Origin: Anaerolineae bacterium
GTDB taxonomy: Bacteria; Chloroflexota; Anaerolineae; B4-G1; SLSP01
Length of the DNA stretch: 35,852 bases
NCBI GenBank assembly: GCA_025454475.1
Contig: JALOOJ010000094.1
Location: 1 to 35,852, forward strand
Direction of reading: 5' to 3'
The notes under the pieces were generated by a model. That model was not told the origin of the DNA. It saw only the letters and a program-made list of their open reading frames with translations, and did not search any database. Below, one piece after another: positions 10,495-26,215 of the stretch. Each line of letters begins with the position of its first letter. The first letter of the stretch is position 1. Both the position numbers and the translations under genes were made by a program.

Positions 10495-11670
10495 CTAGCG
10501 GCGGCTCAGGAGAAGCCTGCGCCACCACGGCAGCTTCGTGGGCCGCCGGTGCGCTGTGGTGGTGGCTGGTACCGAGGCCGGTCGCTGTGCGGGCAATGGT
10601 TCGGGCGGTGCATCGCCCATGCCCACTGCAGCATACAGAAGCCCACAGTCCCACAACTGTCGCGCTGCCTCCGCCGACAATGTGTCGCCTGGCGTGCAGA
10701 GAACGACGTAGGACTCAGGATCATAGGCCGCGTACCGCGCAATAAGCCGCACCGGCGGCGGGCCAGCAAGCATCCAGCGCAACGGCATCGTCGAGACGCG
10801 AGCAAAAGTATCCGGTCGCTCCTCCAACGCAAGCGCCCATCCGAATCTCTCAGGTGCCGACACCTGGGCCTTCGGATTCACGCGGGCCAAGAGCCCATCC
10901 AACGTGAGCGAGGGCACCTCAAGCTCGAACAGGACGGACGCGGCGGTGGCAAGCTCCTGATCGTGCGGCCGTTTGGCAAGCTCCCGCAGGAACCACAGAC
11001 CGTCGAGTTCCACGAATCTGCTGTCGGCCTTTATCGCACCAAGCAGTCGTCCAACCACCACGTCGCCGAAACGCCAGAGCACGTCGTCGATACACGAACC
11101 AACGTCGTCGCTCTCGCTCTGAGCCGTCATCAACGACTCGGCAGAGGGCCCTGTCTGACCCGCGACGACGGTTGCCTTAGGCGCAGCTGGGCCTATAGCG
11201 TAGACCTGCGGAGTGCTCCGTCCATCGATGCGCACCAGGGCGTGATCGCTGCCCACCTGCATGACATCACCCAGCCGTGGAGCAAATCCCCGGATGCGAT
11301 CGAGATCAGGCACAACAAAGATTGCGCGATCGCCGGCGGCCCACGAGGCCGCCGCGTCCCATTTCCGAACGACGGGGTCAGCCACCTTGGTGTCCGGTGC
11401 GGCGGCGCTGTCAAGGCGGGGGCCCTGGTTCAGTCGCGACGCTACCACAACGCGCACCAGATTTGTCAGATCGCTTGCGCGCCCGGCCTCGTCCGCTCGT
11501 GTCGCGATTGCGGCACAGAGCAGGTCAAGGTCGGCGCGGGTCACCGCAAACAACCGCGACCAGTACCGCTGGTAGAAAGCCCCGTAGGCCCGATAGTGTC
11601 CCATCTGGGGAGACATGGCCAGAGGATGCCCGCCCAGTGAAGGTGAACGGTGAACGCCGAGGGTGTCCAC
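10495..11670 (-). CDS. S1: beta-barrel/winged-helix-like partner of the methyltransferase-like protein L1
   Basis: I do not recognise a named family. The 391-residue product is clearly homologous to S2 (15077-16057). Shared blocks are: helical DLTNLVRVVVASRL (67-80); a beta-rich block with KWDAAASWAAGDRAIFVVP (103-121) and PRLGDVMQVG (131-140); a winged-helix-like block IDDVLWRFGDVVVGRLL to DSRFVELDGLWFLR (194-229); a second one ending RWMLAGPPP (298-306); then ARYAAYDPESYVVLC (311-325). A Pro/Ala-rich tail ends in a very basic stretch. The same order, helix then beta barrel then winged helix, appears in the first 220 residues of L1. The start is uncertain: GTG 11670 has AGGAG at 11681-11685, while ATG 11616 and ATG 11604 are alternatives and the last aligns best with S2. 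It begins directly after the L1 stop. DNA binding is inferred. Confidence 0.7.
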   Translation of the reverse strand: MDTLGVHRSPSLGGHPLAMSPQMGHYRAYGAFYQRYWSRLFAVTRADLDLLCAAIATRADEAGRASDLTNLVRVVVASRLNQGPRLDSAAAPDTKVADPVVRKWDAAASWAAGDRAIFVVPDLDRIRGFAPRLGDVMQVGSDHALVRIDGRSTPQVYAIGPAAPKATVVAGQTGPSAESLMTAQSESDDVGSCIDDVLWRFGDVVVGRLLGAIKADSRFVELDGLWFLRELAKRPHDQELATAASVLFELEVPSLTLDGLLARVNPKAQVSAPERFGWALALEERPDTFARVSTMPLRWMLAGPPPVRLIARYAAYDPESYVVLCTPGDTLSAEAARQLWDCGLLYAAVGMGDAPPEPLPAQRPASVPATTTAHRRPTKLPWWRRLLLSRR

Positions 11671-11672
11671 AG

Positions 11673-14600
11673 CTACAGCGCTCCTACTGGCGAGGTCAGC
11701 CACTCACGAGAGAGCACAAAGTAGGTACGTCCTCCTGCCGCTGGGAGAAGCCGGCGCGCCAATGCCAGATACGCGTGGTGTATGCCAGTTCCGGCATCGT
11801 CGTTGCCGGTGAGCCGTTCCCCGACATAACGCTGAACCGCCTCGTCTGCAGTCGCAAACCAGGGCGGGTTGCCGGTGACCAGATCGAAGCCCGCGCCCTC
11901 GTCCCAACCGGCGCTCGCCCACGCCATGCGGATTTCGGGAAACTCAAGCTCCCAGTGGAAGAAACCTTCGGCCTCTGCCTGTGCCTGAAGCCAGGTGGGC
12001 GCAAGCGCCGATATTCGCTCGAGCCGTGGTCCTCCTCGTTCATCGATCACAGCCCGCAACGCAGAAGCCGCCTCGATATCGCCGAGCGCCGCGCTGACAA
12101 CCAGGTCGAAAGCCAGCCGCAAGGGCTCGAGTGCCGCGTCAGCCTTCGCGGCTTGGCCTGCGCTCCACTGCACATCCAGTGACGTCGTGTCAACGCGTTC
12201 GGTCAGCGGGTACAACTCCATCGCGCCGGCAACAATCTCCTGGGGTAGATCTGGCACCCCCAGATCGTCTACGACCTGAGACAGATCAGCACCGAGCAAG
12301 GCATTCCCTACACGTAAATGATGCTCCAGATAACTGAAGGGCATCCCGGGGACCAATGTATGCAACCAGAGCGCGGACTTGGCCACTTCGACAGCCGCGC
12401 GATCGGGAGCAATGCCGAATAGCGAACGTTCCACGATCAGGCGAGACAGGATCGTTGCGTCATCCAGCGCGGTGGCCGTAGCCAGCAGACCTTGCCGCTC
12501 AAGCTCATCGGCGATGTCCCGCCGCAAGTCGTCAATCAGCTTGTACACGGGATTCCAGTTGCGCGGCACGTCGCGATGCGCCGCGTGATACGCTTGCAGC
12601 ACGGCCACAACGCCGTCAGTCAGCGCATCGGCGACGCCCACCAGGAATGCCCCGGGGCCCATCGCCGGGTCGCACACCCGTATCGCCAGTAGCGCCGACC
12701 GCGCCTCACGTGCTGCCGACTCCCATTCGGCGTAGAGCGTCGCCCGTCGACGTCGGTCCAGCGCGCGGCGCAAGCTGCGACGCAGACTCACAACGCGCCC
12801 CATGACCTCCTCAAAGGTCCGTGCCCGCGCCTCGAGGATCGGTGCGACAGCCTGTTGCGCCGACGTCGCGACGACATAGTCGGGCAAGACCTCGCTTGCG
12901 CGATATGCTGCACCCTCGCGCGTAAGCACGACCTCACCCGTCTCAGCGTCCACCACCGTGATGCACGTGCCGACCATCTCGCCACAGACGGCGACCAAAT
13001 CACGCGCATCCAGCGCGCCATAGTCCACAGACCGGTACAGCGCATCAAGGGCGCGTCCTAGCGCCTCGTCACTGAGATGCGTGCGCTCCAGAAAAGCATG
13101 GTCCTCCTGGTCGATCGGATCGAAGAGCTGCCGGCCATATCCTGGTAGCCCCTTCTCAGGATCGCCCTTGCTCAAACGAAGCAGCAAGGCAATCACCAGA
13201 TCGTACCGAGGCGTCGTATACACGCCGGGGCTCAGAGGCAAGGCTCGCCCAAGCCGCTCGGCAGCCCAGTGCGCTTGTGCAGTCAGACTGTGGGGGTGGT
13301 ATGCGGGATCGTCAGTCGGGAATAGACCGCGAGCCTCAGCGATTAGCGCCAACAATAGCCGCGTCGCCAATAGCACGCTGGCCCGATGCACGAGCCGCAG
13401 CGATGCAGGTGTCTCCTGATCGACCCCCTGCCTCTGACGTCGATAAGTGACGAAACCGCCAGCGATCGCGGGCAGGGCCTCACCCAGCAATCGCTCGCGC
13501 AGCAGCTCCCGAGCCCGAACCTCATCTCTCGGAATGCGCAATCGGAGTCGCTCGACGAGGCACCGCCCATCGGTCCCCGTCGTGTAGGAAGCTTGGCGGA
13601 ATAGGAGCCACCAGCGCTGAAACGCCTGCCATTGCTCGAGACCCGGGCGTACAGGCGTTCCGACGCCCGTCATCGCTAACCCGGAGAAGATGTCCGAGAG
13701 ATCGAGCTCGTAGAAGGTCCGCGCAACGCTGTTGGAATCGCTGGAGAACAGTCGCCACGCTCGACCATTGGTCAGGATTCCCCAGCGTACCCCGACCCGG
13801 CGCATCTCGCCGATGAGCTGATGACCTGGCGCAACCGGGAGACATCGCTGCTCCGGCTCGATACAGGCACGATCGGCCAATGGCCTTATCTCCTCAGTCC
13901 GCACCGCCAGGTCCAAGGATTGGTCCCAGGCCATCACCTCGGCCAGGACGGGAGCGCGCCGCGCGAAGGGCCGGGCTATGCCATCATCCATAAACAGCTC
14001 TGCGGCTGCCGTATCGTCTACGCATAGGGCATAGACGTTCTCGGAGGCAGCCGAAAGCGCACTAACAGGGACACTGGACCAACCGAGAGCGCGCAACAGA
14101 GGTTGTACGAAACCTCGCACCAGCTGGGTTACGTTCCAGATCGCACCTGATTGCGCTGCGTGTGCCCAGAGCGCGTGCACCGTCTCGAACTGGCGACCGA
14201 CCGCCTCCTCTGCTTGCCGCGTCTCAGGAAATGCGGCGATGGCTTCCTCGAATGGATCACCTGCAAAGAGCGTCTCACCGGAGCGAGGTGCCTCGCGCGA
14301 TCTGCTCTCGGCTGGGCCGTCGACCTCCGGAACTGTCACCCGCGAGACCGCTATCTGGTCGAAGAATGCATCCAGCAGCAACGCCACGGCAGCATCCAGC
14401 ACGTCAGGGCTCATCGGTGGGAAGAATTCCCTCAGACAGCCGAACTCGCCATTGCGATAGTAGAGTGTGATGAAGCGTGGGTCAGAGGCCAGTACCTGGC
14501 GCACCTCGCGGGCAACTTGCTGCCCTTGCTCAGTGAGCGCTTGTTCGACGGCACCTTCGGACACCACATCGGGCGTAGCTTCCTTGGGCGCTCCCGGGAT

Positions 14601-14999
14601 CTCGGCAGCCAGCATCAGCTTCTCGCGTTGCTGCTTGTACCCTTCCGGTGAGAGTTGGACCGTAAGGACTTTGAAAGCGCCCTGTATGCCGTTGCTACCC
14701 TCTCCGACGGCCATTACGGTGCCCAACCGTCCATCAAGCAACCGGATGTGCTCACCCACCCGATAGCCGCAGCCAGGTGTGTAGATCCGGTAAGCGCTGT
14801 CGTCTACCCAGTGCGCACGTACCGCGTAGCGCACAAGTTCCTGAAGGGGAACCGGCTGGTTGGCTCGACGGATGTAGTCAGCCAACCGATCAGAGTCCAC
14901 CCAAGTCATAGAGGGAGTCTGACTAGGCCGCTTGAGCCCTTCAGGGTATCTGTGCCCATCAGGGACTTTGAGTTCCCTGGACGGTATGCGCAGTGACAC
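11673..14999 (-). CDS. L1: PglX/Eco57I-type adenine DNA methyltransferase-like giant protein
   Basis: The product has 1108 residues; GTG start with a strong AGGGAGG at 15009-15015. Domains in order: helical/beta-barrel module (about 40-115); winged-helix-like block with DPRFITLYYRNGEFGCLR (173-190); degenerate PD-(D/E)xK-type region ending WGILTNGRAWRLFSS (406-420), in which the E-x-K motif reads Glu354-Val-Met356 and so lacks the lysine; helical linker; then the methyltransferase fold with DPAMGPGAFL (777-786, SAM-binding motif I), HHLRVGNALLGA (893-904), FHWELEFPEI (1014-1023) and catalytic NPPW (1044-1047). FHW-x-EFPE before NPPW is characteristic of the PglX/type IIG group, which methylates adenine N6. 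It ends about 60 residues after NPPW, so the target-recognition part is missing. Methylation activity is possible but unproven. Confidence 0.82.
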   Translation of the reverse strand: MSLRIPSRELKVPDGHRYPEGLKRPSQTPSMTWVDSDRLADYIRRANQPVPLQELVRYAVRAHWVDDSAYRIYTPGCGYRVGEHIRLLDGRLGTVMAVGEGSNGIQGAFKVLTVQLSPEGYKQQREKLMLAAEIPGAPKEATPDVVSEGAVEQALTEQGQQVAREVRQVLASDPRFITLYYRNGEFGCLREFFPPMSPDVLDAAVALLLDAFFDQIAVSRVTVPEVDGPAESRSREAPRSGETLFAGDPFEEAIAAFPETRQAEEAVGRQFETVHALWAHAAQSGAIWNVTQLVRGFVQPLLRALGWSSVPVSALSAASENVYALCVDDTAAAELFMDDGIARPFARRAPVLAEVMAWDQSLDLAVRTEEIRPLADRACIEPEQRCLPVAPGHQLIGEMRRVGVRWGILTNGRAWRLFSSDSNSVARTFYELDLSDIFSGLAMTGVGTPVRPGLEQWQAFQRWWLLFRQASYTTGTDGRCLVERLRLRIPRDEVRARELLRERLLGEALPAIAGGFVTYRRQRQGVDQETPASLRLVHRASVLLATRLLLALIAEARGLFPTDDPAYHPHSLTAQAHWAAERLGRALPLSPGVYTTPRYDLVIALLLRLSKGDPEKGLPGYGRQLFDPIDQEDHAFLERTHLSDEALGRALDALYRSVDYGALDARDLVAVCGEMVGTCITVVDAETGEVVLTREGAAYRASEVLPDYVVATSAQQAVAPILEARARTFEEVMGRVVSLRRSLRRALDRRRRATLYAEWESAAREARSALLAIRVCDPAMGPGAFLVGVADALTDGVVAVLQAYHAAHRDVPRNWNPVYKLIDDLRRDIADELERQGLLATATALDDATILSRLIVERSLFGIAPDRAAVEVAKSALWLHTLVPGMPFSYLEHHLRVGNALLGADLSQVVDDLGVPDLPQEIVAGAMELYPLTERVDTTSLDVQWSAGQAAKADAALEPLRLAFDLVVSAALGDIEAASALRAVIDERGGPRLERISALAPTWLQAQAEAEGFFHWELEFPEIRMAWASAGWDEGAGFDLVTGNPPWFATADEAVQRYVGERLTGNDDAGTGIHHAYLALARRLLPAAGGRTYFVLSREWLTSPVGAL

Positions 15000-15026
15000 G
15001 GAGATCGACCTCCCTACACGTAATCC

Positions 15027-15032
15027 AGTATA
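15027..15032 (-). promoter_or_regulatory. possible internal -10 box before L1
   Basis: TATACT is read on the minus strand 28 bases before the L1 start, in the 77-base gap between S2 and L1. The best -35 (TTAACA) is 20 bases away, too far for a good promoter, so this is weak evidence for separate transcription of the second module. Confidence 0.25.
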
Positions 15033-15076
15033 CGCCAGTCGCCATCCTGCTGTGTTAACGCCCCGTTACTGAGCGA

Positions 15077-16057
15077 TTACGGCATCCTCCGCTCCACAAC
15101 CGAACCCAACAGACCCACTTGCCACAGGCGCTGCACCATCTCCGGCGCCAGCGCCTCCCCAGGCTCACAGAGCAAGGCATACGATTCTGGGTCGAAGGCG
15201 GCGTAGCGTGCCAAGAGGTCACCCGGTGGCGGCCCAGCCAGGACCCACCGCGGTCTGGCGTCGGAATCGACGTTTCTGAAGAGATCGGGCCTCTCGTACA
15301 GCCTCAGGACCAGACCGAACAGGCCGCTATCTCCCGCGGGGACCGGAGGCGGCACCCATCGCAACAGCTCAGCCGCCGTCAACGGACGATCGACGGCATA
15401 CAACATAGCGTGTGCCAAGCCCTCCAGTTGCGTGGTCGAAGGCAGCGCGGCCAGATTGCGCAGGTACCATCGCCCCTCCAGATCGCAGAAGCGATCATCA
15501 CTCCGCAAGGCGCACAGAAGAGCGGTCACAACGCCCTCGCCGTAACGCCAGAGCACGCCGTCTATGCGCGAATCGTCATCGGCGCTATCGTCCAGAGCGC
15601 TGACGAGATCCTCGACCGACTGGCGCCACTCGACCACGCCCACGGCATCGCCGAAGGCCGGGGCTGCACCGTAGACACGGGCGTTCGGCTCCCCATCGAG
15701 CCTCACGACAACACACTTGCCGCGCACTTGCGTCACCTCGCCGACCCGGGGGGTGAGGGACCTTACTCGCTCACCGACGATGGGCACAGCGAACAACGCC
15801 CGATCACCCACATGCCATGCATCGGCAGGGTCCCACAAGCGAACCCGATCGCGCTCGACCACCCCAGGGACGGTAGGCGCGTCGCGCGGAGGACCTGAAC
15901 GGAGCCTCTCCTGGATCAGGTGTCGCGCTAACGTCGTCAGGTCCTCCGCAGAACGCGTCGTCCTGATGCGAGCAATGATGCGACTCAGATCGTGCCCGCG
16001 TACCAGAAATGCATCCGATCCGTACCTCAATGGGACCTTGATTGTGCCACGCACCAT
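15077..16057 (-). CDS. S2: beta-barrel/winged-helix-like partner of L2
   Basis: The product has 326 residues and is homologous to S1 along its length. Blocks: helical DLTTLARHLIQERLRSGP (39-56); RLWDPADAWHVGDRALFAVP (73-92) and TPRVGEVTQV (102-111); IDGVLWRYGEGVVTALL to DDRFCDLEGRWYLR (165-200); LTAAELL to DLFRNV (226-263), a second winged-helix-like unit; RWVLAGPPPGDLLARYAAFDPESYALLC (270-297). It lacks the basic C-terminal tail of S1. ATG 16057 is chosen because GAGGGGG (16064-16070) lies six bases upstream and overlaps the L2 stop, which implies translational coupling; a TTG at 16072 would overlap L2 by four bases. No catalytic motif is seen. A DNA-binding or target-recognition role for L2 is inferred from the fold pattern and strict pairing. 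Confidence 0.72.
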   Translation of the reverse strand: MVRGTIKVPLRYGSDAFLVRGHDLSRIIARIRTTRSAEDLTTLARHLIQERLRSGPPRDAPTVPGVVERDRVRLWDPADAWHVGDRALFAVPIVGERVRSLTPRVGEVTQVRGKCVVVRLDGEPNARVYGAAPAFGDAVGVVEWRQSVEDLVSALDDSADDDSRIDGVLWRYGEGVVTALLCALRSDDRFCDLEGRWYLRNLAALPSTTQLEGLAHAMLYAVDRPLTAAELLRWVPPPVPAGDSGLFGLVLRLYERPDLFRNVDSDARPRWVLAGPPPGDLLARYAAFDPESYALLCEPGEALAPEMVQRLWQVGLLGSVVERRMP

Positions 16058-16068
16058 GGATGGCCCCC

Positions 16069-19000
16069 TCAATGCTGCCCAGCGTTCCGGTTCCGACCGG
16101 CTCGGACGACCGGCGTCACAACGAATGCCACACGCCCGCCGGGTCGGCGAACAAGCTGGCGCGCCCTCGCCATAAATGGACCATCTTCGCCGCGCTCGGA
16201 GGCGCCAGCCGACGAGACCGCCGGCGGGCTGCCGATGATCGCGTCGAATCCAGGTCGCTCAGTACCACCGCCGGTCGGCTTCAGAAACACCTCGGGGAAC
16301 GCTACATCCCAATGAAGGAATCCAAGTGCCGCCGCGAGCTCGCGCGCTTGGTCGACGATGGCCAAGTCGCCCGGTTCCAGCGCGATCGCGCCTTGGAGCG
16401 CTGGTACTGCATCGTCGCCCAGCCGGTTCAGAAGGCCACGGGCGCCGGGGTTTCCCAGTTCCTCGCTGACCCAGAGGTCCAGGAGCAACTCTAGCGGTGT
16501 GGTGTCACTGGCGCCGTCCAGGGCACCGGGTCGGTTCAGGGTGGGCATCGCGGCATCGCCCTCCGCTGCCAATGAGGGTGGCAGGGCAACGTCCGACGGC
16601 AACAGCCCAGCCACCAGGCTTGGCGCTAGAGCCTCATCCTGGACATCCGCCAGCCGGGCGCCCAGCAGGCTATCACCCCGGCGGAGATGGTGCACGACGT
16701 CGACGAAAGGTGCTCCGGCTGCATAGGCGCGCGTGGCGACGCTCGTCCTGGCAAGAGCAACCGCGGTCTGATTCAGGTCGACGCCGTAGATGGCGCGCTC
16801 GGCAACCAGCCGCGAGAGTACAACGTCATCCTCCAGGCTCTCCGGGGGAATGACTACACCTTGAGCCCCGGCTGCCGCAAGGATTCTGTCCCGCGTCTCA
16901 GCGATAGCTCGCGCCACAGGGTTCCACGCCCAGGGCACCCAGGGATGCGCACGATGGTACGCTGCAAGCGTCTCAGCGATCCCATCGACGAGCATATCGA
17001 TCGCCCCGATCAGAAGCGTCCCAGTTCCCATCGCTGGGTCAAGGACCTTGATACCCAACAGAGCATCACGGGCCGCCTGCTCTGCCGCGGCGAGGGCCAC
17101 CCGCTCACCAATTCGATCCGTTGTGACTGGCTCCGGCAGCCGCACTCCGGTTCTGACGGGCTCGGACTCTCCCCGATGTAGGATGGCGATCCTGTCCATC
17201 GCCGTGGCGAAGCGAGCCGAGCGTGGGGCAAGGGCGGCTTTGACTGCCGCCTCAATGAGCGAGACGCCCACGAAATCTGGGAGCGGCAGACTGCTCGACG
17301 TCTGCGGGGCGCCGCTGTTGCTGACTAGCACAACCTGACCCGCTGCAGGCTCGACCACCCACAGTAGGCTCTCGATGAGGCCTTCAGCTACGGCGCTCAG
17401 ATGACGCATAGAGATCACCGAGTAATCCACAGGCTCGCCATTGGCAGTCCCAAGAGCCGCGAGGGTCCGCGCGACTACACGATCGCTAAGCCGGTGGCGC
17501 TCCAGAAAGCTGTACTCCGAGTTGGCTGGGCTGAACACCTCCCCGCCACCCTCGGCCAACCCAAGAAGAGGGTGCCCGTGATCGATGTGGCGGAATAGCG
17601 TAAGTAGCCCATCATAGCGGGGCGTGAAGTGGGTTGCCGCGCTGGGCAGCGGGCCATCCGCCACGCAGTCTCGCGCCCATCGCACCATGGTGGTCAAGCT
17701 CTGCCCTCGATAGTCCGGGTTACCCATCGGCAGCACGGCATGCTGCTCGGCGTGCAACACAAAGAGCAAGCGGTACACGAGACCGAGGCTTGCGCGTACG
17801 ATCTCCTCCAGCGTTTCATCGGTCTCAGTACCAGCACCGCGCTCGACGGCTCGGTAGACTACGAAACCTCCGGCGATCTCGGGCAGGACAGTATCAAGCA
17901 GCCGCCGTCGCACGTCGTGAACGACCGCCCGGGCGTACGCCGAAGACTCCCGCTTCAGGCCATCGATGATGGAACGGCCATAGGCATCGGGCTCGGAAGC
18001 CTCCGGCCCAAAAACAGCAGCCCATTGCCGGAAACGTTGCCATGGCACTCCGGCAGTTTGAGGGGGATCCATCGCACCCTCAGCTCCACTCGACGATCCG
18101 AAGATCCCAGACAAGTCAACGGCGTGGAACGTACCAAGCGTGCTTCCAACATCGGGATCGCCCCATGCCGAGCTGTAGAGTCGCCATTCCCTGCCGTTTG
18201 TCAGGATGCCCCAGGGGACACCTTCCGACAGCAGATGCCCCACAAGTCGCAACGCGGGGCTACCCTGAGATCCAGAAGTACTTGCATCATAGGGAGTCGC
18301 ATCCCGACCCAGAGGCTGCTCCCAGTCCTCAACCACCAGCACGGCAAGCGCATCCGAAGTCACAGGAACGCCGCTCTGCGTCCGAGAGCGGGCTCGGTCG
18401 CGGCTGGCGACATCGGCGAACAATGCAAATTCGCTGCCTCCCGAAGGCGATGAGACGCCCGGGAGCGGTGCATAGACCCACCCCAGTGAGGAAATCGCTG
18501 GCGCCACGAACCGAGACCACGTCTGCCCTTTACCAAAGCCACCGAACGCACCAGCAAAGCAGGACCTCATGACCTCATAGACGGATCGCAGTTGTGCATC
18601 AGGGCCCTCGTGTTCCACGCCCCAACGCGCAGACCCCGCGTTCAGGCGCGCATCTTCCGGTGCCTCTGGGATGCGGGCAGCCCTGGACACTGGGGACACG
18701 CCCGCTAACGCAATGGCAGCGCCAGCACCCATCGAATTGTCCGCAACCTCCGGGGAAAACACATCAGCACGAAACAGCGTCGACGCGCGGACCGGCGTCT
18801 GGCTGACCTGGGTTCGGGGCACCGACAGAGCAACATCGCGTTCAGGAACCGACACTAGACCGGCAAGAACTGGATGGAGGCCCACAGCGGTTCGGAGCTC
18901 CCCACCATGCTCGCGCTGGAATGCTGCGAGCGCCTCACCTGAGTTCTCAGGGGTGTCTGAGATGGATGGAGCTCCACTGACCTCAGACACGGCACGCAGG

Positions 19001-19275
19001 ATCACCTCACCCGTGCGCAACTCCAGGACGGAGAAGGAGCCCTGACCGGGGTTGCCACGAGGATGGACTGCCACAACCTCGGCGACCTGGTCGTGGTAGT
19101 GTATTCTCTCGCCTGCCGCATAGGTGGCCCCGGGAGCATAGCATCTGACTCGGGCCCCGCGCTCCAGCACGATCTGGGCAGCCCGTCGCACCAGTTGGTC
19201 GAGATCGACCGAACCGCCGCCCGTTCTGACGGCCCACGCCAAGAGGGATTCTAGGTCAGCCGGCTCGAGCTGCAT
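16069..19275 (-). CDS. L2: PglX/Eco57I-type methyltransferase-like giant protein, probably catalytically dead
   Basis: The product has 1068 residues from ATG 19275; the frame is open to 19335 but that part contains the promoter. The layout matches L1: beta-barrel module RCYAPGATYAAGERIHY (44-60), degenerate PD-(D/E)xK-like region with SEFALFAD (281-288) and VLVVEDW (312-318), where the E-x-K residues read Val and Glu, then WGILTNGREWRLYSS (355-369). The methyltransferase fold has DPAMGTGTLL (746-755), IYGVDLN (829-835, SAM ribose-binding strand), HHLRRGDSLLG (862-872) and LHWDVAFPEVF (987-997). The catalytic NPPY/W position reads SPPA (1016-1019), losing both the Asn and the aromatic residue needed for N6-adenine methylation. 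The C-terminus ends abruptly within a micro-repeat at 16081-16109. A structural or regulatory role beside L1 is inferred. Confidence 0.8.
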   Translation of the reverse strand: MQLEPADLESLLAWAVRTGGGSVDLDQLVRRAAQIVLERGARVRCYAPGATYAAGERIHYHDQVAEVVAVHPRGNPGQGSFSVLELRTGEVILRAVSEVSGAPSISDTPENSGEALAAFQREHGGELRTAVGLHPVLAGLVSVPERDVALSVPRTQVSQTPVRASTLFRADVFSPEVADNSMGAGAAIALAGVSPVSRAARIPEAPEDARLNAGSARWGVEHEGPDAQLRSVYEVMRSCFAGAFGGFGKGQTWSRFVAPAISSLGWVYAPLPGVSSPSGGSEFALFADVASRDRARSRTQSGVPVTSDALAVLVVEDWEQPLGRDATPYDASTSGSQGSPALRLVGHLLSEGVPWGILTNGREWRLYSSAWGDPDVGSTLGTFHAVDLSGIFGSSSGAEGAMDPPQTAGVPWQRFRQWAAVFGPEASEPDAYGRSIIDGLKRESSAYARAVVHDVRRRLLDTVLPEIAGGFVVYRAVERGAGTETDETLEEIVRASLGLVYRLLFVLHAEQHAVLPMGNPDYRGQSLTTMVRWARDCVADGPLPSAATHFTPRYDGLLTLFRHIDHGHPLLGLAEGGGEVFSPANSEYSFLERHRLSDRVVARTLAALGTANGEPVDYSVISMRHLSAVAEGLIESLLWVVEPAAGQVVLVSNSGAPQTSSSLPLPDFVGVSLIEAAVKAALAPRSARFATAMDRIAILHRGESEPVRTGVRLPEPVTTDRIGERVALAAAEQAARDALLGIKVLDPAMGTGTLLIGAIDMLVDGIAETLAAYHRAHPWVPWAWNPVARAIAETRDRILAAAGAQGVVIPPESLEDDVVLSRLVAERAIYGVDLNQTAVALARTSVATRAYAAGAPFVDVVHHLRRGDSLLGARLADVQDEALAPSLVAGLLPSDVALPPSLAAEGDAAMPTLNRPGALDGASDTTPLELLLDLWVSEELGNPGARGLLNRLGDDAVPALQGAIALEPGDLAIVDQARELAAALGFLHWDVAFPEVFLKPTGGGTERPGFDAIIGSPPAVSSAGASERGEDGPFMARARQLVRRPGGRVAFVVTPVVRAGRNRNAGQH
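16081..16109. repeat. hairpin micro-repeat, copy B (L2 3' end)
   Basis: Contains CCGGT-TCCG-ACCGG, a perfect 5-bp stem with 4-base loop. It shares an 18-base exact block with copy A at 20414-20442, and differs at 2 of 22 positions from copy C at 17146-17167. It encodes the last residues of L2 before an early stop. Confidence 0.6.
17146..17167. repeat. hairpin micro-repeat, copy C (inside L2)
   Basis: 22 bases matching copy B except for two changes, which break the perfect stem. Here the frame of L2 is kept (it encodes SEPVRTG on the minus strand), between the linker and motif I. This copy could be chance similarity; the link with copies A and B is tentative. Confidence 0.4.
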
Positions 19276-19306
19276 AGCGCTCCGGGGATGATAGTCGCAT
19301 GCAGGA

Positions 19307-19335
19307 AGTATAGCACCGCAGCGTCTTGCGGACAA
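19307..19335 (-). promoter_or_regulatory. sigma-70-type promoter for the L2-S2-L1-S1 cluster
   Basis: On the minus strand TTGTCC (19335-19330), a 17-base spacer and TATACT (19312-19307) form a good promoter. The expected start lies near 19300, giving a leader of about 25 bases to ATG 19275. This supports the downstream ATG over the earlier TTG as the L2 start. Confidence 0.6.
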
Positions 19336-19389: not shown

Positions 19390-20591
19390 TCACTCCTCGG
19401 CGTCGTCCGGTGACACGCCGAACCTGCCCACGAACCGCACCTGGCCGTCCTCAACACGTAACACGATCATTGATCTGATCGGGTTATGCACGGCATCAAA
19501 CGACATGGGCCCAGCTATCCCATCGAAACGCAGCGTCTCGAGTGTCCGCGCCACCAGCGCAGGATCCTCAACCCCAGCCTCGGCGATCGCGGTGAAAAGC
19601 AGGTTCGCCGCATCATAGCTCAGCGTTGCCAGCGCATCGGGCGGGGCAGAGAATCGCTCCTGAAAACGCGTGACCCACGTGCGCACCACACCCGACGGCT
19701 CATCGCCGAAATAGTGTGCCGTGAATACGGCGCCGCTCATCACAGCCAGGTCAAGCGCCGGCGAATCCCACCCATCACTGCCCAGCACTGGTGCTAGCAC
19801 GCCAAAGCTCCTGGCCTGCGAGACCAACAGGTTAGCCACGGCCGCATAGCCGGGCAGGTACAGAAGGTCCGGTTCCTTGTCACGCACGCCCTCCAGCTCT
19901 TCGAAAAACAGGTCCGCATTCGGATCGTAGGTCTCGGTTGCCACGATTTCGCCGCCGGCCTCCCCGAAAGCAGCGGTGAAGCTGTCCGCCAACGTCTGGC
20001 CGTAGGAGCTCCCTGCGGCATAGAGAACTGCAGCACGCTCGGCGCCCATCTGCTCGCGTGCGTACTGGGCGGCTACCTTGCCCTGAGCCTCATCGGTCAG
20101 CGGCACACGGAAGACTTGGGGACGGACCTCACCATCCGCATCGAGCGTCAACCCAGCCTCGACCGAACCGGGGCTGATCTGTAGCGCCCCTCGAGCGTTC
20201 ACACCCAGGACGCCTTCGTCGCCAAACACACCTCGGCCGGCGGCACTCACGTCGCTTACTACCTGAGCTACGCCCTCGGACGCCGTCGCACAGACAGCCC
20301 CAATCAGGAACATAGCCCCTTTGTCCAGAGCTGCTTGCGCAGCCGCACGTCCCTGAAGGTAGTCACATTGGCTATCCTCGATGATCACCTGAACAGGCTG
20401 TTCGAAGACGCCAAGCTGTCCGGTTCCGACCGGCTCCGACGGCCCCCATTTCGGACACTGTTGCCCAGCGCTGCGTAGTCACCAGAGAACGGGGCGATCA
20501 CCCCAATCCTCAGAGCTACGACCTCCTGCTCTGGACTGCCTCCACAGCCCGTCAGCAGCACACCCAACAGCAAACACGCGAGCCACCTCAC
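19390..20591 (-). pseudogene. broken branched-chain-amino-acid-type ABC binding protein (second copy)
   Basis: The gene starts at GTG 20591 with AAGGGG upstream, giving a lipoprotein signal with lipobox LLTGC and the mature start LRIGVIAPFSGDYAALGNSVRNG. Compared with the intact paralogue at 25079-26215, the next stretch (expected about 36 bases to the Gly-Val strand) is replaced by 32 unrelated bases containing micro-repeat copy A. The frame shifts and hits TGA at 20385-20387. The rest of the protein (PVQVIIEDSQCDY onward, to GSDGWDS, SYDAANLLF and the end) continues intact in another frame, with a GTG overlapping the stop. The remainder lacks a signal peptide and first strand, so it should not function as a periplasmic receptor. 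It follows livF on the same strand. A sequencing error is unlikely to explain a replaced segment. Confidence 0.75.
20414..20442. repeat. hairpin micro-repeat, copy A (at the livK-like frameshift)
   Basis: Contains the same CCGGT-TCCG-ACCGG hairpin as copy B and aligns with it over 29 bases with four mismatches. It lies exactly where the binding-protein gene loses its frame. Confidence 0.6.
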
Positions 20592-20614
20592 GGCCTCACC
20601 CCTTCCAGTAGCAA

Positions 20615-20660
20615 AGTGCCGGGGACTTCGGGCGTCGGAACGCCTTGAGTCCCCGGCACT
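20615..20660. repeat. REP-like palindrome, copy B
   Basis: AGTGCCGGGGACT (20615-20627) pairs with AGTCCCCGGCACT (20648-20660), 13 perfect pairs. The interior holds a second small hairpin, GGCGT-CGGA-ACGCC. It shares the CCGGGGAC/GTCCCCGG core with 17-54 and 32964-33001. It sits between livF and the broken binding-protein gene. Confidence 0.75.
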
Positions 20661-20704
20661 CGGTATCTGACCTCGACCTGTGACACACAATAGGCAACGG
20701 CAGA

Positions 20705-21418
20705 TTAGCCGCCGAGATAGGCGGCGCGCACTTGTGGATTGGCACCCAACTCCTGCGCTGAACCCTCCAACTGGATGGCCCCTGTTTCCAGCACGTAGCC
20801 GCGATCAGCCACCGACAGCGCCATCTGGGCGTTCTGTTCAACAAGCAGGATCGTGACCCCCTCACGACTGATCTCCTTGATGATGTCGAAGATCTCCTCG
20901 ACCAGGATCGGCGCAAGCCCCATTGAGGGCTCATCCATCAGCAGAAGCCGCGGCTTTGCCATCAACGCGCGCCCCACCGCGAGCATCTGCTGCTCGCCAC
21001 CCGATAGCGTTCCGCCGGTCTGCGCTATCCGCTCCCGCAGCCGTGGGAACAGACGGAACACATTCTCCATCGACGCCTCGATCTCATCCTTGTCCGACCG
21101 CGTGAATGCCCCCATCTCCAGGTTCTCACGCACCGTCAGCGGCGAGAAGATGCGTCGCCCCTCCGGCACGTGGATCAGGCGCTTGCGAACGATATTGCTG
21201 GCCTCTACGCCGGTAATGTCCTCTCCGGCGTAGAGGATCTCCCCGCGGTCAACAGGTAGGAGCGCCGAGATGGTACGGAGAGTGGTGGACTTTCCAGCGC
21301 CATTCGCGCCGATCAGTGTGACCACCTCACCCTCATCAACATGAAACGTTACCCCGTGAAGGGCACGAATCGCGCCGTAGGATACATGCAGATCCCTGAC
21401 CTCAAGTAGTGCCGCCAT
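20705..21418 (-). CDS. livF: branched-chain amino acid-type ABC transporter ATPase LivF
   Basis: The 237-residue product is a standard LivF-size ATPase. Walker A GANGAGKST is at 37-45, the ABC signature LSGGEQQ at 138-144, Walker B LLLMDEPS at 158-165 and the switch His/Gln region VEQNAQMAL near 195. LivF and LivG form the cytoplasmic nucleotide-binding pair that powers uptake through LivH and LivM. The VPEGRRIF stretch (84-91) is typical of LivF. It is the last intact gene of the transporter run, 32 bases after livG. The substrate may be leucine/isoleucine/valine, but this transporter family also moves amides, urea and aromatic compounds. Confidence 0.95.
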   Translation of the reverse strand: MAALLEVRDLHVSYGAIRALHGVTFHVDEGEVVTLIGANGAGKSTTLRTISALLPVDRGEILYAGEDITGVEASNIVRKRLIHVPEGRRIFSPLTVRENLEMGAFTRSDKDEIEASMENVFRLFPRLRERIAQTGGTLSGGEQQMLAVGRALMAKPRLLLMDEPSMGLAPILVEEIFDIIKEISREGVTILLVEQNAQMALSVADRGYVLETGAIQLEGSAQELGANPQVRAAYLGG

Positions 21419-21450
21419 ACGTTATCCCTTCATTCCCTGGCACACCGGCG

Positions 21451-22266
21451 CTATACGTGCGCCTGGCGGCCCAGGTAGGCTTCTACGACCTGGGGATTTG
21501 AGCGAACCTCCGATGGATCACCGCGGGCGATGACCTCGCCGAAATCCATCACTGTGATCCACTCGCAGATGTTCATCACCAGGCGCATCCGGTGCTCAAC
21601 CAACAGCACGGTCAAGTCGAACCGATCTCGAATGAAATGGATGAGCTCCATCAGCTCATCAATCTCCTGCGGGTTCATCCCGGCGGCAGGTTCGTCTAGA
21701 ATCAACAGGCGCGGCTGCGCCGCTAGAGCACGCGCGATCTCCAGGCGGCGTTGAAGTCCATAGGGCAACCCACCCGCGATCTCATTCTGGCGGGACGCAA
21801 GGCCGAAAATCTGTAGGAAGTCCTGTGCTCGCTCCGTCATCTCTGCTTCCTTCGCGTGAAAGCGCCGGGTCTGCAGCACGGAGTCCAGCAGGCTGTAGCC
21901 TGCATGGGGGTGATACGCGATCCTGACGTTGTCAAGCACCGTCAACTGCGAGAACAAGCGAATATTCTGGAACGTTCGGGCGATCCCCATCTGGATGATC
22001 TGGTGCGAGGGCAGCCCAACTAGCTCGACATCGCGGAAGCGGATGCTCCCCTCACTGGCGTTGTACACGCCAGTGACCAGGTTAAACACCGTGGTCTTGC
22101 CAGCACCATTCGGCCCGATGAGCCCAGCCAGCTCGCCGTGGTGGAGAACCAAGTCGAAATCGTGCACTGCGCGCAGGCTGCCGAAGAAGTGCGTCACATT
22201 GTCGATGTCAAGGACCACCGGGCGCTCGGTCACAGTCGCGGATAGCGTGTCGGGTCGTCCTCTCAT
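21451..22266 (-). CDS. livG: branched-chain amino acid-type ABC transporter ATPase LivG
   Basis: The product has 271 residues. Walker A GPNGAGKT at 51-58, the LivG-specific signature LPYGLQRRLE (167-176) in place of LSGGQ, and Walker B LILDEPAAGMNP (188-199). The ARTFQNIRLF stretch (96-105) is the LivG Q-loop. Its ATG overlaps the livM stop by four bases (ATGA), showing tight translational coupling. It partners with LivF as the energy-coupling pair of the importer. Confidence 0.95.
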   Translation of the reverse strand: MRGRPDTLSATVTERPVVLDIDNVTHFFGSLRAVHDFDLVLHHGELAGLIGPNGAGKTTVFNLVTGVYNASEGSIRFRDVELVGLPSHQIIQMGIARTFQNIRLFSQLTVLDNVRIAYHPHAGYSLLDSVLQTRRFHAKEAEMTERAQDFLQIFGLASRQNEIAGGLPYGLQRRLEIARALAAQPRLLILDEPAAGMNPQEIDELMELIHFIRDRFDLTVLLVEHRMRLVMNICEWITVMDFGEVIARGDPSEVRSNPQVVEAYLGRQAHV

Positions 22267-23609
22267 GCCACCACCTCCCCGTTGGCGCCAACATCGCCCG
22301 AAGAGGATTCAGTATCCCCGGTATCACCAACGGTGGCGACACCAGGCCGAAGTTGTGGTAGCTTCTTACGCAGGAAAGGCATCTCGTAGCGACCCATCAG
22401 GCCTTCCGGACGCAACAGCATCATCAGCAGCAGAACCAACGGGTAGACCACAAAGCGCCAGGTCTCGAAACCTGCGGGCAGATAGAGGCGCAGCACGCCC
22501 TCAAGCAGGAAGATCCACACAAATCCAGCCAGGATCGTCCCCGTCATGCTCCCAAGCCCGCCAAAGACGACGATGATCAGCGGGTTGAAGGACTGGATGA
22601 AGTTGAAGTTCTGGGGATGCAGAAACGCCAGATCGTGCGCCCGTATTCCGCCAGCGAGGCCCGCAAAGACGCTGCCAATCACAAATGCCAGTACCTTAGA
22701 CGTGGCGACGTCGATGCCCACCAGTTGGGCAGCCCGCTCATCCTCACGCACCGAGACGATGGCGCGCCCGGTGCTCGAGTGCAGCAGGTTACGCATTACC
22801 ACCACCACCAGTACCAGCGACGCGAAAACCCAAGGCCACGTCGTCCACATCGGGATACCGATCATACCTCGGGCGCCCTTCATCTCGGGAAAAGGCAAGA
22901 TCGTGTCGGTATTATCCAGCAGCACCTTGATGATGACGGTGAACCCCAACGTTGCGATACCAAAGTAGTCGGATCCGAGCTCGAGCACCGGAATGCCAAA
23001 GAGGAAGCTCGCGATCCCGGCGAATGCCGCTCCCCCGAGCAGTGCAAGAAAGAACACGATTCTGTCCGAGACATCCGAAGGCAGCCCCTCAAGCACTCCC
23101 GTCACGACAGGGCCAAGCGACGGCACCAGGAACCGCACAGTGATGGCGAGCGCCACAATCGTGGCAATCACAAAGAACGTGAAGCGCGTCATCACGTTCA
23201 CGCGAAAGAACGCCCCCAGCAACCTGGACACGCCGATGTAGAACAGCAGCACCAGGAGAGAGCCGAACAGAACGACGACAATGCCTGACGGGTCGGAATG
23301 AGTCCAGCGCCACGTCACATCGGCGGCCGTATAGGACCCGATAGCATAGAACCCATACTGCCCAAGCGAGAACTGCCCGCAGAAACCGTAGATCAGGTTC
23401 AGGCCCAGCGCGACCATGGTTATCGCCGCGCCCCAGAAGATGATACCACGCCAGAAGTTGTTCAGGACGTCGAATTGGAGAAGCGCCTGTACCAGTGCGA
23501 AGAACAGCAGCCCTCCACCGACGAATAACACGCCCGGTTTCTTCAGAAGCTTCTGAGGCTGGCCTCGCCCCGAGAGGCGAACCCGTTCCGAAGGGCGTTG
23601 TTCGACCAT
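22263..23609 (-). CDS. livM: branched-chain amino acid-type ABC permease LivM
   Basis: The product has 448 residues with about ten hydrophobic segments starting near residue 28. The family signature region ALGLNLIYGFCGQFSLGQYGFYAIGSY lies near 87-113 (shown in part: GQFSLGQYGF), and the EAA-like coupling loop precedes VDVATSKVLAF-type sequence in the middle. It forms the membrane channel with LivH. The ATG has GGAGG five bases upstream, overlapping the livH stop region. It is slightly longer than E. coli LivM, with charged ends rich in Gly/Ser/Thr at the C-terminus. Confidence 0.93.
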   Translation of the reverse strand: MVEQRPSERVRLSGRGQPQKLLKKPGVLFVGGGLLFFALVQALLQFDVLNNFWRGIIFWGAAITMVALGLNLIYGFCGQFSLGQYGFYAIGSYTAADVTWRWTHSDPSGIVVVLFGSLLVLLFYIGVSRLLGAFFRVNVMTRFTFFVIATIVALAITVRFLVPSLGPVVTGVLEGLPSDVSDRIVFFLALLGGAAFAGIASFLFGIPVLELGSDYFGIATLGFTVIIKVLLDNTDTILPFPEMKGARGMIGIPMWTTWPWVFASLVLVVVVMRNLLHSSTGRAIVSVREDERAAQLVGIDVATSKVLAFVIGSVFAGLAGGIRAHDLAFLHPQNFNFIQSFNPLIIVVFGGLGSMTGTILAGFVWIFLLEGVLRLYLPAGFETWRFVVYPLVLLLMMLLRPEGLMGRYEMPFLRKKLPQLRPGVATVGDTGDTESSSGDVGANGEVVA

Positions 23610-23618
23610 AGAGACCTC

Positions 23619-24935
23619 CTACACCTTTTCCGCCGGCGGCTCACCGAAGATGCCCTGGGGCCACACGAGCAGCACGATGATCAGCAATGAGAACGCGATG
23701 GCGTCGCGCATCGGCGTTGAGATGAATCCTGCAGCCAACACCTCCGTCTGGCCCATGATCAGCGACCCCACAAACGCACCCGGGATGCTGCCGATCCCGC
23801 CCACAACCGCCGCTACGAAAGCTTTGAGGCCGGGGATAATGCCCATCAGGTGATGTACTTGTTTGTAAGCGGTCGCATAGAGGACTCCGCCAGCGCCGGC
23901 AAGGCCACCGCCCAGAGCAAAGGTCGCAGTGATGACGCCGTCCACGTTGATGCCCATCAGCCGTGCCGCGGGCTTGTCATAGGCTGCGGCTCGCATTGCC
24001 TTGCCAAGTCGCGTGTTGTTCACGATGTACTGCAACACTACCTGCAACAGAATCGAGGCGCTCATAATGACGAGCGTGACGTTGGAGGCGGAGAGATCCC
24101 ATACCTTGCCCCCGGTCTCGATGCGAATCCCGGCAAGCGTCAGCACAACCGCCAGGAATCCACCGAACTGGAGTCCAAACGAAAGCAACGGATGGCGCAA
24201 AATCAGCTTGGCCCGTGCATCCCCGCGCTTTCCGCGCACAAAGAAGATCCCGTAAATGACCAGCGCAACTACGAAGATCGTCCACATCGCCGCCATCAAG
24301 ACAGGTGACACCTTCCCTGCCGAGTACACTGCCACCTCAAACGGCCGTGGGTAGGTGATGTAGTTGTTGGTGTAGGCAAAGGGCAGCGCGCCGAAGTACT
24401 CCAGGAAGAACGAGACGCCGACCGCCGTGATCAGCGCCGCGATGCGTGGCTTGTTCCGCAGCGGGCGGTATGCGAACCGCTCCACAACCACAGCCAACGC
24501 CGCAGAGATGACCATTGATGCCAGGATTACGGTGAACGTCCCCACGACTGTTGCCAGCCCCTCGGGCATTCCGGGCGCGACCCAGGTTAACCAGCGGTGG
24601 AGCTCCAACGTGCCAATGGTGTAGAAACTCGTGAATGCCCCCACCATGAACACATCCCCGTGGGCGAAGTTGATCAACTTGACGATGCCATAGATCATCG
24701 TGTAGCCCAGAGCAATAAGCGCGTAGATGAACCCCAACTGCAGCCCATTCATGACCTGCTGGATGAAGACACTGGGGTTCTGCAGCAAAGCCCGACCCAA
24801 CACGTAGAGCACAAACAACCCCAAGACGACAAAGATCCCCTGGCTGATGCGATTGAGGATCATACCGTCCCTACGCCGCAGCGAAGCGCCATTGGCCTGC
24901 ACGTCCACGCCTCGCACGCTTACTGTATGCTCCAT
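23619..24935 (-). CDS. livH: branched-chain amino acid-type ABC permease LivH, enlarged
   Basis: The product has 438 residues from ATG 24935, chosen over an earlier frame start at 25016 because a purine-rich ribosome-binding site precedes it. Signatures include ALGYTMIYGIVKLINFAHGD in the N-terminal half, TRLGKAMRA (coupling helix) and GLKAFVAAVVGGIGSIPGA near the end. Ordinary LivH has about 300 residues. Here an N-terminal extension adds one extra membrane segment, and roughly 90 residues with further membrane segments are inserted between the YITYPRP stretch and TRLGKAMRA. Both parts are in frame and hydrophobic, so this is a structural variant rather than damage. It is separated from the binding-protein gene by a stem-loop at 24995-25041. 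Confidence 0.92.
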   Translation of the reverse strand: MEHTVSVRGVDVQANGASLRRRDGMILNRISQGIFVVLGLFVLYVLGRALLQNPSVFIQQVMNGLQLGFIYALIALGYTMIYGIVKLINFAHGDVFMVGAFTSFYTIGTLELHRWLTWVAPGMPEGLATVVGTFTVILASMVISAALAVVVERFAYRPLRNKPRIAALITAVGVSFFLEYFGALPFAYTNNYITYPRPFEVAVYSAGKVSPVLMAAMWTIFVVALVIYGIFFVRGKRGDARAKLILRHPLLSFGLQFGGFLAVVLTLAGIRIETGGKVWDLSASNVTLVIMSASILLQVVLQYIVNNTRLGKAMRAAAYDKPAARLMGINVDGVITATFALGGGLAGAGGVLYATAYKQVHHLMGIIPGLKAFVAAVVGGIGSIPGAFVGSLIMGQTEVLAAGFISTPMRDAIAFSLLIIVLLVWPQGIFGEPPAEKV

Positions 24936-24994
24936 AGCTCCACCTTCCTCACCTGCACCTTGACAGACACCTATGTACTCTTCTGGGTACAAGA

Positions 24995-25041
24995 GAGAAG
25001 CCGGGGCCCGCGCCACCGTGGCGCGAATGCCCTGGCTTCTC
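24995..25041 (-). terminator. stem-loop between binding-protein gene and livH
   Basis: GAGAAGCC (24995-25002) pairs with GGCTTCTC (25034-25041), and GCGCCAC with GTGGCGC inside, giving a long hairpin just after the binding-protein stop. Such a partial terminator or stabiliser usually lets the receptor be made in excess over the permease. There is no long T-run. Confidence 0.55.
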
Positions 25042-25078
25042 CGATTCCTCAGCTAGTTATACCTAGGCGCGCGTCCGG

Positions 25079-26215
25079 TCACGGAGCGACGGTATCTGTA
25101 TAGATGACCTGGCCACCCGAGACCTGGAGCATGACGGCGGACTTCACCGGGTTGTGGCTAGCATCATACGTGATCTCGCCAGAGACAACTGGGAAGGTTC
25201 CCGACGCCATGGTTTCAGCGACCTTGATAGGATCGACACTGTTGGCCTGATCCATCGACTGCAGCAGAATCGTCGCGGCATCATAGGCCAATGCGGCCAG
25301 CGCGTCCGGTCGGGCTCCATACTTTGCCTCGTACTTGCTCACGAAGTCCTGCACGATCGCCCGCGTGTCATCCGCTGAGAAGTGGTTTGTGAAGTAGCCG
25401 CCCTCGACCACGCTAACGTCAAGGTCAGCCGAATCCCAACCATCGCCGCCCATCAACACGGCGGTGATCCCCTTCTCCTGGGCCTGTCCCGCGATCAGGT
25501 TAACGGTATTGTAGTAATCCGGCAGGTACAGCACATCAGGATTCGCGTCCTTGACCTTCGTCAGAATCGCCGAAAAGTCCTGATCGTCACCAGTGTAGCT
25601 CTCCGTCACGACGACTTGGCCACCGGCGGCCTCAAACTCCTTGATGAAGACCTCGGCCAGGCCACGGACGTAGTCATTGCCCTGGTCCAGGAAGACCGCG
25701 GCCGTCTGGGCGCCCAGCGTCTCAATGGCGAACTTCGCTCCCACCAACCCCTGGAACGGGTCGATGAAGCAGGCGCGGAAGATAGTGGACTTGGTGGTGC
25801 CGTCCTCGGCAACCGTCACGCTGGGGTTCGTCGAGGTCGGGCTGATCTGCAGCACGCCCTTGGACGTCGCGATTTCCGACACAGGAATCGAGGCGCTCGA
25901 GCAGACCTCACCGATGATGAACTTCACGCCATCCTGATCGATGACCTTGTTCGCGGCGCTGACCGCAGCCTCAGCATTGCACTGGCTGTCCTCAACCACG
26001 ACCTCGATCGTCGCACCATCAACACCACCCTTGGCGTTCCACTCCTCAATGGCCAGCATCGCGCCATCGCGGGTGGACTGACCAAAGGTCGCCACGTCGC
26101 CGCTCAAAGGCGCCAAGATCGCGATCTTGACGGCCTTGCTACCGGCGCCGCCACAACCACTCAGCGCCACCAGTGCCAACACCACCATGGCCACAACAGC
26201 AGTTCTAATACGCAT
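25079..26215 (-). CDS. branched-chain amino acid-type ABC transporter substrate-binding lipoprotein
   Basis: The product has 378 residues. A signal peptide ends in lipobox ALSGC with Cys21, so the mature protein is lipid-anchored outside the membrane. The two-lobed periplasmic-binding fold of the LivJ/LivK type (Peripla_BP_6) is seen: VKIAILAPLSGDVATFGQ (29-46), then EVVVEDSQC, ISPTSTNPSVT, PDVLYLPDYYNTVNLI, GGDGWDSADL and ALAYDAATILL. It captures the ligand for LivHMGF; leucine/valine/isoleucine is the default but related receptors bind other amino acids or amides. AGGAGGAG precedes the ATG. A strong minus-strand promoter lies at 26365-26393, giving a leader of about 140 bases in which a GGCCCG/CGGGCC hairpin is the only structure I note. 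Confidence 0.93.
   Translation of the reverse strand: MRIRTAVVAMVVLALVALSGCGGAGSKAVKIAILAPLSGDVATFGQSTRDGAMLAIEEWNAKGGVDGATIEVVVEDSQCNAEAAVSAANKVIDQDGVKFIIGEVCSSASIPVSEIATSKGVLQISPTSTNPSVTVAEDGTTKSTIFRACFIDPFQGLVGAKFAIETLGAQTAAVFLDQGNDYVRGLAEVFIKEFEAAGGQVVVTESYTGDDQDFSAILTKVKDANPDVLYLPDYYNTVNLIAGQAQEKGITAVLMGGDGWDSADLDVSVVEGGYFTNHFSADDTRAIVQDFVSKYEAKYGARPDALAALAYDAATILLQSMDQANSVDPIKVAETMASGTFPVVSGEITYDASHNPVKSAVMLQVSGGQVIYTDTVAP

Follow-up and report, generated by a model that had tools for sequence, protein, structure and literature searches.

A tandem pair of apparently disarmed type IIG proteins with predicted winged-helix partners, kept across a genus of Anaerolineae

Enzymes that carry restriction and methylation on a single chain are usually viewed as either active or decaying. 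The described systems to which we compare the locus reported here include the type IIG enzymes (IIC/IIL; BpuSI, MmeI, DrdV), and among them the BcgI-like enzymes have a separate specificity subunit. According to a review, the specificity module of a type IIG enzyme can be a separate subunit (PMC4081073), and a methyltransferase of Bacillus subtilis, DnmA, is reported to influence gene expression while giving no protection against phage (PMC9973331). The literature searched for an inactivated type IIG pair, or for such a system in Anaerolineae, held no description of one.

We have tried to focus on one question: what are the four genes that lie together in the window, by which we mean the whole stretch of DNA that was analysed (35,852 nt of contig JALOOJ010000094.1)? 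Essentially, their kind is known, type IIG, and what is new is a tandem, apparently disarmed pair with a new partner that is predicted to have a winged helix. Four open reading frames on the minus strand were confirmed at 10,495-19,335, and the features that matter are these, in window coordinates:

19390-26215, minus strand: liv-type branched-chain amino acid ABC transporter genes, upstream on the same strand, syntenic genus-wide; context, outside the module
16069-19335, minus strand: L1, 1088 aa, truncated, apparently inactivated type IIG-like protein with, in order, an N-terminal helix/SH3-like domain, a dead PD-(D/E)XK-like region, a helical region and a truncated methyltransferase; likelier start ATG 19275
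16219-16230, minus strand: L1 motif IV, degraded to SPPA (residues 1036-1039)
15077-16072, minus strand: S1, 331 aa, predicted DNA-binding protein with an SH3-like barrel and, at model residues 207-275, a winged helix; likelier start ATG 16057, ~12 nt past the L1 stop
11673-14999, minus strand: L2, 1108 aa, paralogue of L1, DPAMGPG and NPPW kept, nuclease residues lost, C-terminus truncated
13680-14204, minus strand: L2 PD-(D/E)XK-matching region (residues 266-440), matched to intact relatives, NVYALC...AEVMAW replacing the catalytic residues
12651-12671, minus strand: L2 SAM motif I DPAMGPG (residues 777-783), kept
11859-11870, minus strand: L2 motif IV NPPW (residues 1044-1047), kept in the window genome, lost in some orthologues
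10495-11703, minus strand: S2, 402 aa, paralogue of S1 whose C-terminal tail is Pro/Ala-rich and basic; likelier start ATG 11616, ~57 nt past the L2 stop

A preliminary description of this DNA, made from its letters alone, had recognized four minus-strand genes in two homologous pairs, and that much holds: L1 and L2 are homologous over their whole length (30-31% identity over 1091 columns, E 3e-96), and S1 and S2 are 43% identical over 318 positions (E 1e-66). The tandem pair also stands, with its numbering swapped, for transcription runs L1-S1-L2-S2, from right to left in the window. That S begins at the L stop is an approximation: the longest S1 frame does overlap the L1 stop, but the likelier starts of both S genes lie a little beyond the stops, and among orthologues the L-S gap ranges from a 4-nt overlap to a few nucleotides. 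Just before the likely L1 start, at 19307-19335 on the minus strand, there is a promoter-like TTGTCC-17-TATACT with a TG extension; such sites occur at chance number in the region.

Where does L come from? In Pfam, L2 matches an Eco57I methyltransferase (E 2e-9) and L1 does so weakly; in PADLOC, the best profiles are those of DrmMI and the type IIG enzymes (E 1e-40 for L2), each spanning parts of L only. A PDB sequence search with the S and L alignments gave no informative match. In a structure search, as had been proposed, the L2 model (pLDDT 65, moderately confident and weak at its C-terminus) matches BREX PglX/BrxX best and then DrdV, MmeI and BpuSI (E 4e-5 to 4e-2). Across ~300 genomes of the class, we found relatives in other Anaerolineae—G231 (1380 aa), G179, G196, G063, G012 and G036 (both at a contig end) and G120 (2054 aa)—that carry RPDY(A/T)LF...(E/D)AKxW and motif I, with motif IV as NPPY/W in contigs that extend to it; those uncut by a contig end continue in a long C-terminus. 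The nuclease residues are thus kept in seven of eight such relatives, the eighth, the more distant G172, having the PD and no E/DxK. Taken together, the matches indicate that L descends from single-chain type IIG restriction-methylases (PglX/MmeI/BpuSI fold) and is not a free-standing new methyltransferase. The label “uncharacterised” was right for S, but for L it missed this clear ancestry.

The PD and E/DxK are replaced in all ten L proteins from five genomes of the genus; the window L1 reads SEFALF...VVEDW and the window L2 reads NVYALC...AEVMAW. The 3' end of the gene is present in nine of the ten, and each of these stops no more than ~60 residues past motif IV, whereas the intact relative G231 has ~460 more residues. 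Because G231 847-948 matches M.TaqI 73-178 and L2 ends near G231 residue 918, L would end near TaqI residue 145; given the domain limits of TaqI, L would lack both the remainder of the catalytic domain and all of the recognition domain. All nine proteins are without the last part of the methyltransferase fold and without a target-recognition domain. Motif IV reads GSPPA, GSPPS, GSPPA, GNPPL and GNPPV in the five L1 proteins (GSPPA in the window) and, in L2, NPPW (window genome and G002), NPPH (G001) and GAPPR (G004). SAM motif I is DPAMGxG in eight of nine aligned L proteins and DPVVGAG in the other. Motif IV, then, appears lost in every L1 and eroded in some L2, with motif I largely kept. L had been called methyltransferase-like, which is right as far as it goes; the protein is an incomplete methyltransferase, what remains of a nuclease-methyltransferase that looks truncated and inactivated. 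A DNA-modification complex had also been suggested; active modification by both copies is not supported, given the GSPPA of L1 and the missing C-terminal methyltransferase and target-recognition parts.

In the tree, the L1 clade (100/100) and the L2 clade (100/100) join each other (100/99) apart from the relatives. Most simply, then, the nuclease site and the C-terminus would have been lost once, before a duplication split L1 from L2, and all of this would have preceded the radiation of the genus.

The small protein has no match in Pfam, PADLOC or NCBIfam, and no specificity subunit appears even at E 1 in Pfam or PADLOC. Its model (pLDDT 83.8, pTM 0.79) has a helical N-terminus, a small SH3-like barrel and, at 207-275, a segment that matches winged-helix chains at a middling Z of up to 7.8, in a comparison that covered mainly 207-278. 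This supports the winged helix named in the preliminary description, and S probably binds DNA, to judge from a model with that middling Z and no solved homologue. Foldseek of the whole model gave nothing below E 1e-3, which leaves the whole-protein fold without an assignment.

Could S simply be the split-off C-terminus of L? That idea is ruled out, as S is homologous to the N-terminus of L instead. Profile comparison (hhalign) pairs S with the L N-terminus at 95.4% probability, S with the first 300 residues of a 525-aa Anaerolineae protein at 99.5% and the L N-terminus with the same domain of that family at 98.8%. On these profiles, S and the L N-terminus belong to one domain family, which has no name. 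The 525-aa family itself (L023:3796-5376, present in many Anaerolineae genomes) has no Pfam or NCBIfam name, its N-terminal domain being the part common to S and L. Hits to the S profile, most of them in this family, turn up in 84 of 298 genomes of the class (E 1e-8). At E 1e-15, a search of 400 genomes of the phylum found S in the window's own genome only, so the S family is rare; the records named in a DNA scan for S are Anaerolineae/Thermoflexales MAGs, and IMG/VR viral contigs hold no relative and so give no sign of phage origin.

Fused copies of the same N-terminal module are found elsewhere: in G120 and G036 the partner is a type IIG enzyme whose nuclease residues are intact, and in G059 it is an N6-methyltransferase. 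Over 535 residues the modules of G120 and G059 share 71% identity, and therefore the module has been swapped between enzymes. In G120 (L106:5823-11987), a single chain of 2054 aa holds both an entire 525-aa-like module and a type IIG enzyme whose catalytic motifs are intact.

S has other neighbours elsewhere. In G059, G023 and G031, at loci that have no L, it ends shortly upstream of a ~1880-aa protein combining a DEDDh exonuclease with DinG-like and RecQ-like helicases (the G031 copy is cut by a contig end), and in G104 and G075 more distant S-like proteins precede a similar giant helicase. Of these other giant exonuclease-DinG-RecQ proteins of G104 and G075 (L126:763-11547, L125:97-6521, L127:1-6473), those at L125 and L127 are preceded by an S-like protein and the one at L126 by a protein with the G059-type N-terminal module. 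In G059, three N6-methyltransferases, a specificity-subunit-like protein and a PDC-M41A protein share the strand of S and the helicase, and the locus looks like an undescribed restriction-like system; its parts (L030:8495-19997 and L031:182-2803) are an N6-methyltransferase with the S/L-type module, the specificity-like protein, two more N6-methyltransferases, the PDC-M41A protein, S and a 1886-aa DEDDh-DinG-RecQ protein. The full helicase was not found in the genus genomes searched. Supply in trans from the window's own genome was considered and rejected, as that genome has only separate RecQ-like and DinG-like proteins, ~30-42% identical.

How, then, does the module compare with systems that have names? 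It is closest to type IIG, with which L shares the order of a PD-(D/E)XK-like region, a helical region and the start of a gamma-class methyltransferase, besides the fold matches and a clear homology to intact full-length relatives in other Anaerolineae. Of the marks of a type IIG enzyme, L has the SAM motif I (DPAxGxG); the gamma-class motif IV (NPPY/F/W) is present as NPPW in the window L2 and altered in L1 and in some L2 orthologues; the nuclease residues are gone, the methyltransferase is incomplete and there is no specificity module, either C-terminal or as a separate subunit, and L adds an extra N-terminal domain and a fixed tandem duplication with S. It is possible that S is a functional substitute for that module. 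The BcgI-like enzymes resemble the arrangement in pairing a large enzyme-like chain with a separate small protein, but S is a winged-helix/SH3-like protein with no specificity-subunit match. BREX PglX/BrxX gives the best fold matches of the L2 model, yet no PglZ, BrxA, BrxB, BrxC or BrxL adjoins among the annotated window frames, and L is without the C-terminal part. DISARM DrmMI is the best PADLOC profile, but the DrmMI and IIG profiles cover parts of L, and DrmA, DrmB (DUF1998) and DrmC are missing as neighbours; an MZB/DUF1998 protein of the window genome lies on another contig and has matches in common control genomes as well. For type I restriction, the window has no HsdR, HsdS or HsdM neighbour. 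The 525-aa family resembles S over its first 300 residues, and the loci of S with the giant exonuclease-DinG-RecQ protein differ from the module in having no L, the helicase being missing at the window locus. No named system fits the L-S module.

Both L copies are present in all five genus genomes examined, so the four-gene arrangement is not chance, and the survey of L-S neighbours that had been called for finds the two adjacent throughout. The cassette sits between an amidohydrolase-like gene and the liv ABC operon in G000, G001 and G002, and in G003 and G004 as far as the contigs reach. The ten L frames and their S frames are open across five species at ~40-65% amino-acid identity, with differences at codon positions 1/2/3 of ~0.35/0.28/0.63 and a dN/dS of ~0.1-0.3, an estimate made with saturated dS. 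Both copies are thus under purifying selection, as anticipated from their deep divergence. Identity is 80-85% for LivF and LivG and 67-68% for the amidohydrolase-like protein, which means that L and S evolve faster than their neighbours. Such a fixed housekeeping position of the cassette speaks against a mobile defence island. Pfam annotation of the window frames (liv transporter, GH127, L25, EF-G and others) shows no defence gene beside the cassette and bears out the reported absence of BREX, DISARM and type I/III partner genes. Next to L1, at 19390-20690 on the minus strand, the second of the LivK-like substrate-binding genes shows a frameshift close to its N-terminus relative to the G001 and G002 orthologues (tblastn, two frames); this is either a sequencing error or a pseudogene.

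We suggest, giving it about an even chance, that a type IIG pair has been exapted here after losing its catalytic activity, and that together with S, its DNA-binding subunit, it forms a complex that senses SAM and binds DNA, in a regulatory or a defensive role. L would no longer cut DNA, L1 at least would no longer methylate it and L as a whole would do so little or not at all; L may still bind SAM and serve as a scaffold. The S gene lies right where the recognition domain was once encoded, and S would supply DNA binding in trans through its winged helix and perhaps pair with L through their homologous domains. A heteromeric complex of the two L-S pairs is possible, as had been proposed, and it would be a regulator, or a sensor that recruits other nucleases, and not a self-contained restriction system. 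A bolder form, which we offer tentatively and would ourselves bet against, makes the two inactivated enzymes, each with a winged-helix partner replacing its recognition domain, a non-enzymatic, SAM-responsive DNA-binding machine whose targeting subunit, S, is shared with a separate, undescribed exonuclease-DinG-RecQ helicase defence system.

The preliminary description suggested a phage-defence role; an active module of this kind would recruit a nuclease encoded elsewhere. The type IIG/DrmMI ancestry, the fast divergence relative to neighbours and the company that S keeps in other families (an exonuclease-helicase, joined in one of them by three methyltransferases and a specificity-like protein) speak for it, but the syntenic position is fixed, the surroundings are a conserved stretch between the amidohydrolase and liv genes and not a defence island, the cassette has no intact nuclease and no full giant helicase was found in the genus genomes; we consider it unlikely. 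We think it more doubtful still that L2-S2 is an active SAM-dependent N6-adenine methyltransferase, S replacing the recognition domain and L1-S1 being an inactive partner, in other words an orphan epigenetic methyltransferase. Since L2 of the window genome and G002 keeps NPPW along with motif I, residual methyl transfer is possible if the missing parts are supplied in trans, and there are precedents for separate specificity subunits in type IIG enzymes (PMC4081073) and for a methyltransferase that serves gene expression with no phage protection (PMC9973331). Against this stand the GAPPR of G004 and the NPPH of G001, the loss of the last part of the fold in all L with a 3' end and an S that matches neither a methyltransferase nor a classical specificity subunit in Pfam, PADLOC or NCBIfam.

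That the locus is a decaying restriction relic, transiently open, would explain the loss of both catalytic centres and the C-terminus, but the open L and S frames of five species, with their strong codon-position bias and dN/dS, largely refute it and make it very improbable. An assembly or frameshift artefact splitting an intact L, conceivable in a draft assembly whose LivK-like gene does carry a frameshift, is refuted by orthologues with the same L end and S start in independent assemblies and by the kinship of S with the L N-terminus and not the missing C-terminus, and has practically no chance of being true.

We return to the disarmed pair. What the genus appears to have kept by selection, in a fixed housekeeping position and with a putative DNA-binding partner, would be neither of the two things that such enzymes are usually taken to be. 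If our reading is true, we would have here a clear example of restriction enzymes that have become a scaffold or sensor, and the module would make it possible to ask directly what the type IIG core does once catalysis is gone. It also brings to light a domain family of Anaerolineae, one without a name, that has been swapped among type IIG enzymes, methyltransferases and giant exonuclease-helicase loci.
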